Assembly: GCF_900106585.1 (NCBI RefSeq)
Contig: NZ_FNWH01000006.1
Coordinates: 558,001-622,000 of the forward strand
Length of the DNA: 64,000 bases
Reading direction: 5' to 3'
Source of the DNA: Acidaminococcus timonensis
Lineage (GTDB): Bacteria; Bacillota; Negativicutes; Acidaminococcales; Acidaminococcaceae
The stretch's first letter is position 1. Each line of letters opens with the position of its first letter. Below, piece by piece: positions 3,175 through 54,755 of this stretch. A program made the translations under genes and the position numbers. The notes beneath the pieces were generated by a model. That model was not told the origin of the DNA and did no database searches. It was given only the letters and a program-made list of their open reading frames with translations.

Positions 3175-4170
3175 TCAGGGGCGCTCTGACTTCTTAGCCA
3201 AGATCTCTTCCCACCATTCCCGATTCTCCAGATACCATTTGATGGTTTTCTTGATTCCGTCCGCAAATTTCGTTTCTGGAAGCCAGCCAAGCTCATTATG
3301 GATTTTTGTCGGGTCGATGGCGTATCGTCTGTCATGGCCTTTCCGGTCCTTCACATAGGTAACCAGGCTTTCCGGCTTGCCCAGTTCCTTACAGATTAGT
3401 TTTACGATGTGGAGGTTCTGCATTTCGTTGTGGCCGCCTACGTTATAGATTTCTCCTGGCCGTCCTTTTTGCAGGATCAGGTCGATGGCACGGCAATGGT
3501 CTTCCACATATAACCAGTCCCGGATGTTTTGCCCATCCCCGTATACCGGCAGGGGTTTGTCCTGCAGGGCGTTGATGATCATCAGGGGAATCAGTTTTTC
3601 CGGGAACTGGTAGGGACCATAGTTGTTGCTGCACCGGCTGATGGTCACCGGCAGCCCATAGGTCCGGTGGTAGGCCAGCGCCAGCAGATCGGCTCCGGCC
3701 TTGGAGCTGCTGTAGGGGCTGGAAGGATTGAGGGGTGAAGTCTCTGTAAAGAGCAGATCTGGACGGTCCAGGGGCAGGTCCCCGTAGACTTCATCTGTAG
3801 AAACCTGCTGGAAGCGCTGGATGCCATATTTCCGGCAGGCGTCCATGAGAACGGAAGTCCCGAGGATGTTCGTTTCCAGGAAAATTGCAGGATCCAAAAT
3901 GGATCGGTCCACATGGGATTCGGCCGCAAAGTTGACCACGATATCGGGGTGTCGTTCTTCGAAGAGAGCGTATACAGCCTTGCGGTCACAGATATCCAGC
4001 TTGCGGAACTGGAAATGGGAGTGGTCCATGATGGGCGCCAGGGTAGCAAGGTTCCCGGCATAGGTCAGTTTGTCCAGGCAGATGATGTTAGCCTCAGGGT
4101 GCTGCTTCAGCACATAAAAGATAAAATTGGAGCCGATGAACCCGGCACCACCGGTTACAAGAATTTTCAT
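3175..4170 (-). CDS. rfbB: dTDP-glucose 4,6-dehydratase
   Basis: Extended short-chain dehydrogenase of 331 residues, normal for RfbB/RmlB. The NAD-binding motif GGAGFIGS is at 7-14, the catalytic triad segment STDEVYG at 124-130 (Thr125, Asp126, Glu127) and the YxxxK pair at Tyr153/Lys157. The family converts dTDP-glucose to dTDP-4-keto-6-deoxyglucose, the second step towards dTDP-rhamnose. No other rhamnose gene is next to it; the IS and the interrupted gene lie on its 3' side. The start ATG is preceded by a GAGG-type ribosome site. Confidence 0.94.
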   Translation of the reverse strand: MKILVTGGAGFIGSNFIFYVLKQHPEANIICLDKLTYAGNLATLAPIMDHSHFQFRKLDICDRKAVYALFEERHPDIVVNFAAESHVDRSILDPAIFLETNILGTSVLMDACRKYGIQRFQQVSTDEVYGDLPLDRPDLLFTETSPLNPSSPYSSSKAGADLLALAYHRTYGLPVTISRCSNNYGPYQFPEKLIPLMIINALQDKPLPVYGDGQNIRDWLYVEDHCRAIDLILQKGRPGEIYNVGGHNEMQNLHIVKLICKELGKPESLVTYVKDRKGHDRRYAIDPTKIHNELGWLPETKFADGIKKTIKWYLENREWWEEILAKKSERP

Positions 4171-4845: not shown

Positions 4846-5506
4846 ATTTGATCTTCGTCTTATTCAATTTGCTGGAAATCTTGTTCCCGATGCTCTGTAC
4901 CACCTGCACCAGGGCAATCAGCACGATGACGGTGGCAATCATGGTGTCAGCCTGGAACCGCTGGTATCCGTAGCGGATGGCCAGATCTCCCAGGCCGCCG
5001 CCGCCCAGGGCACCGGCCATGGCGCTGGAACCGATCAGGCTGATCACGGCCAGGGTGATGCCCAGGACGATGCTGTGCATGGCTTCGGGCAGCAACACTT
5101 TCCAGATGATCTGCATGGGGCTGGCTCCCATGCTCTGGGCGGCTTCGATGACGCCGGGGTCCACTTCCAACAGAGAGGATTCGATGATCCGGGAAATGAA
5201 CGGGGTGCAGGAAATGGTCAGGGGTACGATGGCGGCGGTGGTCCCGATGGAGCTGCCCACGATGAGGCGGGTCAGGGGGATGATGGCCACCATCAGGATG
5301 ATGAAGGGGATGGACCGGAGGGCGTTCACGATGGAGCCCAGGGTTTTGTGCAGGGCAGGGTTTTCTTTGATGTGGCCCTTGCCGGTAATGGTCAGGATCA
5401 CGCCCAGGGGGATGCCGCAGATTGTGGCGATGGCGGCGGACAGGGCCACCATGTACAGGGTTTCGCCCAGGGCTTTCACCAGCAGATGAATCATATTAGG
5501 AGACAT
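4844..5506 (-). CDS. metI: Methionine ABC transporter permease MetI
   Basis: Inner-membrane permease of 220 residues with five or so hydrophobic segments and the EAA-type loop (EAAQSMGASPMQIIWKV) that docks the ATPase. It pairs with MetN to import methionine. I take the ATG at 5506 (MSPNMIH), which has GAGGTG eight bases upstream; a TTG two codons earlier is possible. It overlaps the end of metN by about 11 bases. A terminator follows directly. The usual third gene, metQ for the substrate-binding lipoprotein, is not in the window. Confidence 0.93.
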   Translation of the reverse strand: MSPNMIHLLVKALGETLYMVALSAAIATICGIPLGVILTITGKGHIKENPALHKTLGSIVNALRSIPFIILMVAIIPLTRLIVGSSIGTTAAIVPLTISCTPFISRIIESSLLEVDPGVIEAAQSMGASPMQIIWKVLLPEAMHSIVLGITLAVISLIGSSAMAGALGGGGLGDLAIRYGYQRFQADTMIATVIVLIALVQVVQSIGNKISSKLNKTKIK

Positions 5507-6533
5507 AACCAATCACCTCGTCTTTGACTTTTCTAGAATGCAGGTAATCCAGGGCCTGTTTCAGATGGCCCTCGTCACCTTCCAGTTCGATGAGCAGGGT
5601 GCCGAAGGGGGTATCCTGCAGGTTTTCGATGTTGGCGGTCAGGATATTCACATTCGTGTCGTACTTCTTGATCAGTACGGCCACCACGGGCTCGCCGGCG
5701 CTGTCGCCGATGAAGCTCAGGCTGACCAGGGCCTTGTCGCCGCTCTTGTACTCTTTGTGCAGATCCAGTTTCTTGACGAAATCGGGCAGGTCGTTGTGTT
5801 GGATGCTGGCCACGAATTCCTTGGTGGTGGTCTTCTGGGGATTGGTGAAAAGGTCCACCATGGTGCCCTGTTCGATGATCTGGCCGTTTTCGATGACGGC
5901 CACCCGGTCGCAGATCTCTTTCACTACGTTCATCTGGTGGGTGATCATGACGATGGTGATGTGCAGCCGTTTGTTGATGTCACGGAGCAGGTTCAGGATG
6001 GATTCTGTGGTCTGGGGATCCAGGGCGGAAGTGGCTTCGTCGCACAGCAGCACTTTGGGGTCGCTGGCCAGGGCCCGGGCGATGCCCACCCGCTGTTTCT
6101 GCCCGCCGGACAGCTGACTGGGGTAGTGGTCGGCCCGGTCGGCCAGGCCCACCAGATCCAGCAGGGGATCTACCTTCTTTTTAATGGAAGCCTTGTCCAG
6201 GCCCTGGATTTCCAGGGGGAAGGCGATGTTGCCGTAGACGGTGCGGCTGGCCAGCAGGTTGAAGTGCTGGAAGATCATGCCGATGTTCTGCCGGGCTTTG
6301 CGCAGCTGTTCTTCGCTGAGGGCAGTCATTTCCTGGCCGTCTACGAAGACCTTGCCACTGGTGGGCCGTTCCAGCATGTTGATGCAGCGCACCAGGGTGG
6401 ATTTGCCGGCACCGGACAGGCCGATGATGCCGAAGATCTCACCTTCGTTGATGGTCAGGTTGATGTCTTTCAGGGCATGGAGATCGCCTGAGGCGGTGTG
6501 ATAGATTTTTTCAATGTGCTCCAATTGGATCAT
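5496..6533 (-). CDS. metN: Methionine ABC transporter ATP-binding protein MetN
   Basis: ABC ATPase of 345 residues: Walker A GLSGAGKST at 38-46, signature LSGGQKQR, Walker B VLLCDEAT, and a C-terminal NIL domain (about 265-345) that in MetN senses methionine. The ATG at 6531-6533 (MIQLEHIEKI) is chosen because GGAGGTG stands just upstream. The frame stays open for 23 more codons, but those cover the riboswitch terminator hairpin and are not coding. Expression should be switched off by S-adenosylmethionine through the leader. Confidence 0.95.
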   Translation of the reverse strand: MIQLEHIEKIYHTASGDLHALKDINLTINEGEIFGIIGLSGAGKSTLVRCINMLERPTSGKVFVDGQEMTALSEEQLRKARQNIGMIFQHFNLLASRTVYGNIAFPLEIQGLDKASIKKKVDPLLDLVGLADRADHYPSQLSGGQKQRVGIARALASDPKVLLCDEATSALDPQTTESILNLLRDINKRLHITIVMITHQMNVVKEICDRVAVIENGQIIEQGTMVDLFTNPQKTTTKEFVASIQHNDLPDFVKKLDLHKEYKSGDKALVSLSFIGDSAGEPVVAVLIKKYDTNVNILTANIENLQDTPFGTLLIELEGDEGHLKQALDYLHSRKVKDEVIGYVS

Positions 6534-6602: not shown

Positions 6603-6722
6603 TCATCTTCATCTTTCAGGCAATGCCTGATGGACTTAGCACCGTTCGTGGAAAGGAGCGCTTTCCAGATGGTTGCCGTAACTTCATAGGGCCAGTCCCT
6701 CCGTTACTCTGGATGAATTCCG
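6603..6722 (-). promoter_or_regulatory. SAM-I (S-box) riboswitch aptamer
   Basis: The minus strand shows the conserved S-box core in order: GGAGGGACTGGCCC, then TATGAAG, CGGCAACC, GGTGCTAAGTCC and AAAGATGA, closed by a TTCATC/GATGAA stem. This aptamer binds S-adenosylmethionine. A terminator hairpin follows and metNI is the target, so high SAM should stop transcription of methionine uptake. Confidence 0.95.
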
Positions 6723-35222: not shown

Positions 35223-35320
35223 AAAGTATCTGCAGTGACATGTCAGCCGGGGATGCCGATCTGGCTGGCCGCCTGTTCTTTTGGGAGGGGAATGGGAACG
35301 GGATCATTGTAAATCATTGA

Positions 35321-35490
35321 GCGCAGGTGCCGGAACGCTGTTCCGGCCGACGAGGAAGAGGTTCATCGATACGTCAGCGGATGCCTCTCGGTAAGCTGCA
35401 AACCGTAAACGGCTCTACAAATCCCTCCGGCAACGGGGGCATACAGAAGGAGCCGCGGCAGACGGTAACTACGAACACATCAGGAGGAAT
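35321..35490 (+). ncRNA. glmS ribozyme (glucosamine-6-phosphate activated)
   Basis: The conserved core is present in order: ATTGA/GCGCAGG at the cleavage point (between 35320 and 35321), a CCGGAAC/GTTCCGG hairpin, CGACGAGGAAGAGG, TCATCGA, AGCGGATGCCTCTCGG, then ACCGTAAACGGC and the CCCTCC/GGGGGC hairpin. It cuts the glmS mRNA when glucosamine-6-phosphate is abundant, marking the message for decay. Confidence 0.95.
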
Positions 35491-52304: not shown

Positions 52305-53378
52305 TTAAAAAATATCGTTGACCGCTTTTGCCGCAGCCAACTGGATGTCTTTTGTGTTGTTGGCGTACGTGGTACTGACGGTTTGGATGGTATCACCCAG
52401 CAGGTTGGCCACCAGGTTGATGTCACCGGTTTCATGGAGCATCAGTGTGGCGTAGGTGTGCCGGAAGGCATGGAGGGAACGGCCAGGGTAATGCTTATGG
52501 ATGTAGGAATTGATGTAGACCTGGATGGTGCGCAGCCGCTCGGGAGGGAAGACCATACCGTCAATTCGGAACGGCTTCGAGTCCTTCCATTTGCGGAGCG
52601 CAGCCAGTACGACCTTTGGCACTGGTATCGTCCGGTTACTGTTCTTCGTCTTGCAGGGGGTCAGCCCGTAAGATGTGCGGCTGGTCCTGGCCCACTGCTT
52701 GCAGATCTTGAACGTTCCGGCCGCAAAGTTGACACAGTCCCACGTCAGCCCCCGGATCTCTCCGATTCTCATACCCGTCCGGCTGGCCACCAGCACCACA
52801 AGGTAGTAGAGAGGGTCCCGGCCATGCTTCTGGAAGTGGTCCAGAATCTGAGCGACTTCCTCCCGGCTGAAGGCTCTGATCGTCTGTTCTCTCCGGTCCT
52901 GTACCTGGGGGACTTCCGCAGCCGGGTTCGTCTTGATGATCTTGTATGTCATGGCATGGCGGAGTACACGGCCAACAGCTGCCAGGGAGAGGTTCTTCGT
53001 TTTGGCGGCAAAGGGCAGGCCATTGATTTCATTCATCAGCACCGGCGGTGTGATATCCTTGATGGGCAGGTCCAATATATTCGGCAGCCGTTTAACTCTG
53101 TCCTCATAAGCCAGGATAGAGCCATAGGTCAGCCGTCCTTGCATATCACGCTTGAACATGGTCCAGAACTGGCGCAAGGTGATTGCCTTCAGGGTTTTAT
53201 CGAGTGTGGTTCCAATCTCTTTCTGGGCGGCCTCCAGAAGTTCATCCTGGTGCTGCCTGGCCTCCCGTTGGGTCTTGAAGCCCTGCCGGGTCTTCTGCCG
53301 CCAGCGGCTGCCGACTTTGTAGGACAAGATCAAACACACAGAGCCGTTCTTGTCACGGTAGCTGAAATGGTAATCCAT
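52305..53378 (-). CDS. int: Phage integrase, tyrosine recombinase
   Basis: Protein of 357 residues: an AP2-like arm-binding start (RWRQKTRQGFKTQREARQHQ), a core-binding domain (about 60-160) and a catalytic domain with the first Arg in SRTGMRIGEIRG, HAFRHTYAT for His-x-x-Arg, and the nucleophilic Tyr in VSTTYANNT near the end. It is divergent from the rest of the early genes and borders the chromosome. GGAGGTATGACCT precedes the ATG. Confidence 0.95.
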   Translation of the reverse strand: MDYHFSYRDKNGSVCLILSYKVGSRWRQKTRQGFKTQREARQHQDELLEAAQKEIGTTLDKTLKAITLRQFWTMFKRDMQGRLTYGSILAYEDRVKRLPNILDLPIKDITPPVLMNEINGLPFAAKTKNLSLAAVGRVLRHAMTYKIIKTNPAAEVPQVQDRREQTIRAFSREEVAQILDHFQKHGRDPLYYLVVLVASRTGMRIGEIRGLTWDCVNFAAGTFKICKQWARTSRTSYGLTPCKTKNSNRTIPVPKVVLAALRKWKDSKPFRIDGMVFPPERLRTIQVYINSYIHKHYPGRSLHAFRHTYATLMLHETGDINLVANLLGDTIQTVSTTYANNTKDIQLAAAKAVNDIF

Positions 53379-53568
53379 AGGTCATACCTCCTTCTATGGA
53401 TAGGGCAGGGGCTCCTGTGGTAAAATAATACAGTAAGCCCCTTGTGGAAAGGGTGGTTACACTGTCCCTGCTGGTATTTGCGGTACCGGCAGGGAATTTT
53501 TAATGGCTTGGAATCTCATAACCACAATATATAGCTTGATATAGCTTGACAAAAACTATATCTTGTGC
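53379..53568 (+). promoter_or_regulatory. Spacer with plus-strand terminator and dyad
   Basis: 53466-53494 is a strong hairpin (CCCTGCTGGTA with TACCGGCAGGG) followed by T5, oriented for plus-strand transcripts although the only gene to its left is on the minus strand; a small antisense transcript starting near 53420 is possible. Further right, CACAATATATAG (53523-53534) and CTATATCTTGTG (53556-53567) make an 11-of-12 dyad just before the small-RNA promoter, a likely operator. Confidence 0.55.
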
Positions 53569-53596
53569 TTGTGATTTTCTAGATTCCTGATATAAT
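53569..53596 (+). promoter_or_regulatory. Promoter of the small RNA
   Basis: TTGTGA (53569-53574) is 16 bases from a perfect TATAAT (53591-53596). The predicted start falls at about 53603, which is exactly the first paired base of the RNA. Confidence 0.75.
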
Positions 53597-53602
53597 AATT
53601 AT

Positions 53603-53694
53603 AGAGCAACTCGTGAAGGATATAGGCTGGGTTCCCGAATGGGAGTAGGCGTAACGCTTAGAATTCCTTTGCCCCTGGGGTTAGCTCTTTTTTT
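53603..53694 (+). ncRNA. Structured small RNA convergent with the DUF3644 gene
   Basis: About 92 bases with its own promoter and terminator. The first bases AGAGCAAC pair with GTTAGCTCT right before T7, closing the molecule. Inside, AAGGA (around 53617) can pair with TCCTT (around 53665), enclosing two hairpins: TTCCC-GAAT-GGGAG and AGGCG-TAA-CGCTT; CCCCTGGGG adds a small hairpin or a pseudoknot strand. No ORF or ribosome site. Its last 14 bases overlap the 3' end of the DUF3644 gene on the other strand. The pairing of a HEPN protein with a compact RNA recalls AbiF-type systems; function is inferred. Confidence 0.7.
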
Positions 53695-54697
53695 GTTTAC
53701 TTCTCAGATTCTGAATGATATGTTCAGGATCTTTTTTTATTTCTTCTACTATTAATTCAATGGCAGCATCGCTATACGAATATAGTGTTTGTGTCCCTAT
53801 TTCGTATTTATAACACAGCTTTGGGTTTTCTTTAATCTGATAGAATTTGACGATACAATCAAAATTGTTAGTCGTAAATGTATTATATTTTTCATCCGTT
53901 GGTAATTTTGAAGGATTTATAAAATTTATCCCTTCCATTTTTAACTTTTTATTTATTAATTCGATACATTTACCTCTTCTATGAGGACATAATTTTTGCA
54001 TATCTTTAGTATCTTTTATGATAAAAGCTGCTTCTTTCGCATCTTTTGCAATTCGTACGGTAGTTGAAGCTAAATCAGCTTTTTTAGTAATATAAATATC
54101 ATGTTTAATCATAACCGCATATCTATCGTTCCCATTTTCTGGCATAGAATCATTTAACCTGCCAACAGTTTGTAAAACACGATTAGCAATTTCCTGCGGA
54201 TAACGAGCATGTACCTCTTCCGGGCTGATTGGCGATAGCTTAACAGACAGTACTAGGAAATTAGATGGAATATTTTTTGTTATATCGATACCAAAAAATT
54301 CGGCAAGTTTATTCGTATAATTCAGCACACAAGACTGAAAAAAAGGAACATAGATTTGTTCATATTCTTCGGTAATAAAATGAGTACTGGTATTCCTTAA
54401 ATCAATAATTTGTTCAAGATTCATACGAAGAGGATCTTTTTTATTTGTGAAGACTTGTTCAATGCAGTTGAAAAGAGTCTTTGTTCTTTTCTTATCGTTC
54501 GAGTAGTAAATGCTTTCTTCCCCATCTCTCTTTATTAAATACGCTTTTAGCATTAATTCCCATGCATTGCAAATAAAGAAGGAGAAACCTTCTACGCGAT
54601 ATTTAATAGTTGGTTTGTTATACAACTCAATTCCTACGATAAAAGCTTCCTGGCTTTTTTCGAGCAATTGATTGATTAGATTCTGTTTTTTATCCAT
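53681..54697 (-). CDS. DUF3644 protein with HEPN-type RNase motif
   Basis: Protein of 338 residues. The N-terminal 120 residues match the DUF3644 pattern (SFFICNAWELMLKAYLIKRDG) and contain Arg104-Asn105-x-x-x-His109 (LRNTSTHF), the R-x4-H signature of HEPN ribonucleases. The C-terminal 150 residues are beta/alpha, unassigned. The gene is far more AT-rich than its neighbours, typical of a phage-borne defence or abortive-infection cargo gene. The ATG at 54697 has AGAAAGG nine bases upstream; upstream in-frame ATGs overlap that site. It lies between integrase and repressor, where prophages often carry such genes, and probably is expressed in the lysogen. Confidence 0.75.
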   Translation of the reverse strand: MDKKQNLINQLLEKSQEAFIVGIELYNKPTIKYRVEGFSFFICNAWELMLKAYLIKRDGEESIYYSNDKKRTKTLFNCIEQVFTNKKDPLRMNLEQIIDLRNTSTHFITEEYEQIYVPFFQSCVLNYTNKLAEFFGIDITKNIPSNFLVLSVKLSPISPEEVHARYPQEIANRVLQTVGRLNDSMPENGNDRYAVMIKHDIYITKKADLASTTVRIAKDAKEAAFIIKDTKDMQKLCPHRRGKCIELINKKLKMEGINFINPSKLPTDEKYNTFTTNNFDCIVKFYQIKENPKLCYKYEIGTQTLYSYSDAAIELIVEEIKKDPEHIIQNLRSKQKKS

Positions 54698-54755
54698 AAT
54701 CATCATCCTTTCTGTAACATTTGACCTCTCGATATCGAGGGGCTTTTTCTTTCCC

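Follow-up and report, generated by a model that had tools for sequence, protein, structure and literature searches.

The DUF3644 gene and its surroundings

The window, a stretch of 64,000 nucleotides from Acidaminococcus timonensis, carries a prophage locus with the following layout. A gene for an S24-type phage repressor (54756–55490, minus strand) lies upstream of, and on the same strand as, an open reading frame at 53681–54706 that encodes a protein of 341 residues with a DUF3644 (HEPN) domain and a C-terminal EC042_2821 domain, a member of the PDC-S19 family. A structured RNA is encoded on the plus strand at the 3′ end of this gene, and beyond the RNA lies the gene for a tyrosine integrase (52305–53378, minus strand); repressor and integrase were assigned with Pfam. 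The likelier start of the DUF3644 gene is at 54697, as in the first-pass annotation of this DNA, and is backed by a Shine–Dalgarno-like AAAGGA. The order repressor then DUF3644 recurs in other loci (L032, L037, L038, and L042), and the full order repressor–DUF3644–RNA–integrase is repeated in many phages. A palindrome, CCTCTCGATATCGAGGGG, in the gap separating the repressor from the start of DUF3644 (54725–54742), is a possible operator or attenuator.

The Pfam DUF3644 match extends over residues 13–187 (1.2e-59; 201 bits, with a cut-off of 27.6) and that to EC042_2821 over residues 235–335. All nine PDC-S19 models in PADLOC match the protein, the best at 1.7e-135 and 449.8 bits, and the DUF3644 and PDC-S19 profile matches span its whole length. 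DUF3644 was classed as a HEPN family by Anantharaman et al. 2013 (PMC3710099). The R-x4-H motif that had been noticed at Arg104 and His109 is confirmed. That is, the protein has an R-N-x-S-T-H motif, with R104 and H109 in the 341-residue numbering (Arg101 and His106 counted from 54697), that is invariant in 22 of 22 aligned relatives, and the R and H of R-x4-H are invariant in 46 of 46 sequences. An AlphaFold2 model (pLDDT 82.8) found no match below E 0.001 when compared with the PDB by Foldseek, so the assignment of a HEPN four-helix fold rests on further structural alignment together with Pfam. In that alignment, residues 1–151 of the model fit solved HEPN domains, with residues 6–140 matching the structures 2hsb, MntA–HepT, Csm6′, and AbiV. 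The top aligned chains are HEPN proteins, the best being 2hsb (Z 9.7, rmsd 2.9, 118 residues), with all HEPN-fold alignments at Z < 10, a modest value given that helical bundles are being compared. Searching the PDB with the protein sequence gave no useful match, and a literature search on PDC-S19 found nothing, while one on DUF3644 found a single paper.

A structured RNA convergent with the gene

The predicted 92-base RNA at 53603–53694 is borne out by a covariance model, R1, built from homologous loci. The model places a structured non-coding RNA, a probable antitoxin or cognate RNA convergent with the gene, at 53601–53694 of the plus strand (likely 53603–53694) with a score of 101.1 bits; gene-linked loci score roughly 72–108 bits. 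The RNA's sigma-70 type promoter, TTGTGA-16-TATAAT, was found by promoter scan where it had been expected, at 53569–53596 of the plus strand, and a −10 box with at least five of six matches lies upstream of the RNA in 52 of 55 homologous loci, as against 26% in shuffled sequence. An intrinsic terminator, made up of the 3′ strand of the closing stem P1 and a T7 run (53678–53694, plus strand; T7 at 53688–53694), extends into the last codons of DUF3644, again as predicted. The RNA overlaps the gene end in 37 of the 39 loci measured, mostly by 2–13 nt, and because the overlap is usually so short, conservation of the RNA goes beyond coding constraint. A dyad that the first-pass annotation had placed before the promoter did not hold up: compared with shuffles, it is within chance (z −1.16).

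The same RNA is found, antisense to the gene end, in relatives from Streptococcus satellites and prophages, from phages of Staphylococcus, Listeria, and Flavonifractor, and from Negativicutes. Folded alone, the window RNA is no better than its shuffles (z −0.92). This result alone would favour a chance hairpin, and it follows that proof of structure is comparative; the comparative data overturn the chance hairpin. The consensus fold is as follows. P1, the closing stem and terminator, pairs 53603–53612 with 53678–53688, leaving A53683 bulged, and 8 of its 10 pairs are changed on both sides among homologues. Inside it, the long-range helix P2 forms the boundary of a core, pairs 53625–53631 with 53666–53673 (4 of 6 pairs changed on both sides), and encloses two hairpins supported by covariation. 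The first, P2b (UCCC-GAAU-GGGA, 53633–53644), has 3 of 4 pairs changed on both sides, including a UGCC/GGCA swap in L061, L109, and L113. The second, P3 (53648–53658), is variable in sequence, likewise with 3 of 4 pairs changed on both sides and with many pair types. P3 is flanked by AGUA (53644–53647) and AGAA (53660–53663), which may resemble a loop-E motif. The earlier description of the fold stands for the closing stem, which covaries, and needs a qualification for the interior, where the fold of the single sequence differs from the consensus P2 around P2b and P3.

Across 89 distinct sequences and 26 pairs, in an alignment that was fitted to the structure, 97.5% of cells are paired, compared with 83.7% after shuffling; both-side changes occur in 18 of the 26 pairs, none of 500 shuffles is as good, and the covariation score is 0.430, as against 0.167 after shuffling and no more than 0.094 in slid versions. 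A MAFFT alignment of 25 distinct sequences, not fitted to the structure, gives 93.2% paired cells and a score of 0.331 versus 0.182, and RNAalifold independently recovers P1, P2, and P2b. The strand of the RNA is fixed by 326 G-U cells; reading the opposite strand drops pairing from 97.5% to 83.7%. In 92 sequences, the unpaired segments are conserved, and variation is confined to the stems and to the hairpin and loop of P3. Since every single-stranded stretch is conserved, the RNA has no spacer-like guide, and a guide RNA of a Cas13-like RNA-guided effector is ruled out.

Rfam has no family for the RNA in the window or at ten homologous loci, nor, with E allowed to rise to 10, in the 400 bases surrounding it, so a known Rfam family is ruled out; the lack of a match to RF03085 at E up to 10 excludes identity with the AbiF RNA in the same way. 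Elsewhere in the window, Rfam matches above gathering score are a SAM riboswitch (6606–6719) and a glmS ribozyme (35309–35465).

The gene with its RNA, and the RNA without the gene

So that the test of linkage would not be circular, the protein alone was used to search viral contigs, which gave 80 loci. Three (L157, L186, and L188) were left out since their contigs stop at the gene end; in the remaining 77 of 77 testable loci, the RNA is present at the 3′ end of the gene on the opposite strand. The same is true of 46 of 46 DUF3644-positive phage records, matched by host group and accession, and of all eight close full-length DUF3644 copies in 300 genomes of the class, these record counts not being independent events. 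The RNA accompanies close DUF3644 genes in satellites, prophages, and chromosomal contexts alike. Thus, the conserved, covarying RNA beside other DUF3644 genes that the first-pass annotation had proposed as a check was found. Within this DUF3644 clade, linkage to the RNA is obligate, and the structure and promoter of the RNA are conserved. Distant DUF3644 loci from 14 sources, scanned with the covariance model, all lack the RNA, so it is not a requirement across the PDC-S19 family.

The linkage is asymmetric: the gene of this clade was never seen without the RNA, whereas the RNA without the gene is common. Solitary RNAs are of two classes. In the first, the full RNA lies between phage repressor and integrase genes, with another gene in the place of DUF3644: SIR2 (L069 and L094), DUF2326 (L101), NYN (L150), SHOCT/PH (L130 and L147), or Bro-N (L125). 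In two staphylococcal phages (L041, 1098–1240; L075, 2998–3110), the RNA is accompanied by PGA_cap and a ten-codon relic of DUF3644, and here the putative toxin gene has been replaced. L074 and L076 have the RNA with no gene in the DUF3644 place, and the remaining solitary full RNAs lie close to the end of a contig or lack an evident partner. One solitary RNA (L065, 6001–6093) is convergent with a truncated-looking gene of the Abi_2 (AbiF) family at 5191–5853. In a Listeria phage (L035), the Listeria sRNA rli48 is found at 3564–3713, about 0.5 kb past a DUF3644-linked RNA.

The second class consists of bare cores, running from P2 to P2 inclusive (P2–P2b–P3), in the lytic regions of phages; they were detected by four core-pattern scans. 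The core follows a tRNA by about 6–9 nt in L090, L117, L126, and L243, and it follows tRNA-Ile in L122 and tRNA-Trp in L113. In L090, L117, and L126, the tRNA directly before the core has a predicted four-base CCCC anticodon. TerS/TerL or HNH genes lie downstream of the core in L077, L122, L126, L127, L081, and L073, and an HNH gene in L090, while in L109, a 207-kb contig, the RNA adjoins a gene for a single-strand-binding protein. The closing stems of the cores are unrelated in sequence. When tested against shuffles, the stem is significant in L113, L109, L091, L092, L112, L104, L098, L060, L061, and L245 and not significant in L090, L122, and L127.

A cassette of this kind is found in streptococcal phages, in which a tRNA-Ser-like sequence is followed about 10 nt on by a core in 21 viral contigs, 19 of them with a tRNA called by ARAGORN. 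The cassette is matched by about 80 records of streptococcal phages, which are not independent events, including SMP, MismyG, phiARI0399, IPP9, K13, and 34117; SMP has been described as virulent (PMC8637289). In the annotated phage regions examined, the cassette lies between the early genes and terminase, and no match to it was found in plasmids. The closing-stem test, run with one sequence each, was not significant except for phiSS12 (L077). Covariance model scores of these cores are weak, at 20–26 bits, and their homology therefore rests also on sequence, as follows. Two core alleles are 84% identical to the RNAs of an S. mitis satellite (L032) and an S. halotolerans satellite (L076), respectively, compared with 61–69% to the window RNA, so that they are nearest to the two streptococcal types of full RNA. 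DUF3644 satellites and core-carrying phages share species, for example S. pneumoniae.

A proposed protein–RNA module and its alternatives

We propose, with a probability of roughly two in three, that the locus is a two-component protein–RNA toxin–antitoxin (abortive-infection) module of the prophage. Linkage and covariation make a two-component RNA/HEPN locus, as first suggested, the best reading. The DUF3644 protein would be a ribonuclease of the HEPN type whose gene is read on the lysogenic side, beside the repressor. The RNA of about 92 nt, made from its own strong promoter, would fold with P1 around the core (P2, P2b, and P3), bind the protein, and hold it inactive, as RCd22 does AbiF (PMC12373285); infection would disturb the balance of protein and RNA and so free the ribonuclease. 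In this scheme, we infer ribonuclease activity, toxicity, RNA–protein binding, neutralisation, and phage defence. As in protein–RNA toxin–antitoxin systems, a conserved structured RNA is adjacent to the gene, and the gene is not found without the RNA; the HEPN fold, the invariant R-x4-H, and the listing of the protein by PADLOC as candidate defence also speak for the proposal. A toxin and its antitoxin would be expected to show the asymmetry described above, since the RNA persists where the gene is lost. Set against this reading are the frequency of solitary full RNAs, by which the RNA may have another role, the lack of the RNA beside distant PDC-S19 proteins, and the modest Z of the fold alignments.

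The closest known parallel is the AbiF (Abi_2)/RCd22 (RF03085) pair of the C. difficile phage phi027, likewise a phage-borne HEPN protein with a structured RNA of about 100 nt that has its own sigma-A promoter, and in which RCd22 binds and neutralises AbiF (PMC12373285). The two differ in that AbiF belongs to Abi_2 (PF07751), whereas the protein here matches only DUF3644 and EC042_2821 in Pfam, and in that RCd22 lies upstream of AbiF and is co-transcribed with it, whereas the present RNA is convergent at the 3′ end of DUF3644. ToxIN also combines an RNA antitoxin with a protein RNase, as proposed here, but with a ToxN fold in place of HEPN; ToxIN, CptIN, and TenpIN have a tandem-repeat RNA upstream in an operon, in contrast to the present single folded RNA, which is encoded opposite the gene at its 3′ end. 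In PADLOC, PDC-S19 is a protein-only defence candidate with no RNA component, unlike the pair found here. The suggestion that this is an undescribed DUF3644 variety agrees with Rfam and with the literature searched, neither of which holds a description; coverage was partial, and an earlier one may exist.

Gene–RNA linkage alone is not decisive because an RNA required for activity would give the same linkage. On this alternative, which we regard as unlikely, the RNA would not be an antitoxin but would activate the protein as a cofactor, or be a sensor, and DUF3644 would be an RNA-dependent ribonucleoprotein that phage cores jam or that detects phages through them. Obligate linkage and core mimicry fit equally well, and AbiD/F proteins, which also have an RNA, are close to the HEPN domains of Cas13 (PMC12165695). 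With the gene gone, however, one would expect a cofactor to decay, and the RNA is kept; nor does the RNA have a variable guide-like segment. The link to Cas13 ancestry raised at the outset is one described for AbiD/F proteins.

We consider it improbable that the element serves phage biology apart from DUF3644, as an RNA or DNA site for packaging, attachment, or host-factor binding to which the gene is merely adjacent. The position of bare cores just upstream of terminase genes would suit such a role, as would full RNAs that stand alone between repressor and integrase alongside other cargo. Against this, every close DUF3644 gene has the RNA regardless of its setting (satellite, prophage, or chromosome), streptococcal cores are most like streptococcal gene-linked RNAs, and G-U pairs and distant helices indicate RNA, which disfavours a DNA attachment or packaging site in particular. 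Least probable of all is a cis regulator only, that is, an antisense RNA or a terminator shared by convergent genes: the terminator and the short overlap with the gene end agree with it, but conservation, long-range helices, and covariation far exceed a terminator, and cores distant from the gene, closed by unrelated stems, persist.

Under the toxin–antitoxin proposal, the bare cores may plausibly be read as mimics of the antitoxin, by analogy with two known systems. Phages carry pseudo-ToxI RNA mimics to escape ToxIN (PMC3475682), and Racrs, RNA anti-CRISPRs, are solitary phage RNA units that mimic a defence RNA (PMC10651486). Bare cores would act like pseudo-ToxI on ToxIN or Racrs on CRISPR; they are solitary, match the RNA component, and have no cognate gene nearby. 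Racrs mimic CRISPR repeats, whereas the cores resemble an antitoxin RNA, and their likeness to pseudo-ToxI extends to mimic activity only by inference. It is tempting, though somewhat short of an even bet, to propose that phages use re-stemmed cores, which in several cassettes lie directly behind tRNA genes and upstream of terminase, as an RNA counter-defence against the DUF3644 of rival prophages and satellites, with a hint of a tRNA-cleaving toxin. The position of cores beside phage tRNAs suggests that the DUF3644 protein may target tRNA; the tRNAs differ between cassettes, and the hint is a weak one for this reason. Phage tRNAs are described as counteracting tRNA-cutting defences (PMC12409363). 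If the proposal is true, the tRNA-plus-mimic cassette would counter a tRNA-cleaving toxin in two ways, replacing the tRNA and supplying an antidote RNA.

With this analysis, DUF3644/PDC-S19, a widespread but uncharacterised HEPN family, becomes testable as a two-component RNA–protein system. A structured RNA family outside Rfam is added as well; phages and satellites that carry it come from Streptococcus, Staphylococcus, Listeria, Corynebacterium, Flavonifractor, and Negativicutes. The results further suggest an anti-defence role for an RNA that is common, though unannotated, next to the tRNAs of pneumococcal and other phages. Such a pairing of HEPN protein and RNA, the second beside AbiF and independent of it, would bear on the origin of RNA-controlled HEPN nucleases and, ultimately, of Cas13.

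Three further observations concern the cores. In the streptococcal phages L267–L274, the interval from the core to tRNA-Lys/Tyr contains a conserved stretch of about 130 nt with a T-arm-like hairpin (around 1575–1700), for which Rfam has no family when the copy in L269 is searched. In L073 (G246), the core at 6001–6113, upstream of the terminase genes, has a much enlarged P3 region and a GC-rich closing stem. A third streptococcal core allele, at 1501–1570 of L273 and L274 (phages 34117 and IPP16), has a rearranged interior (CCCAGAA...TTCTGGG) between the same flanks and is a possible arms-race variant.
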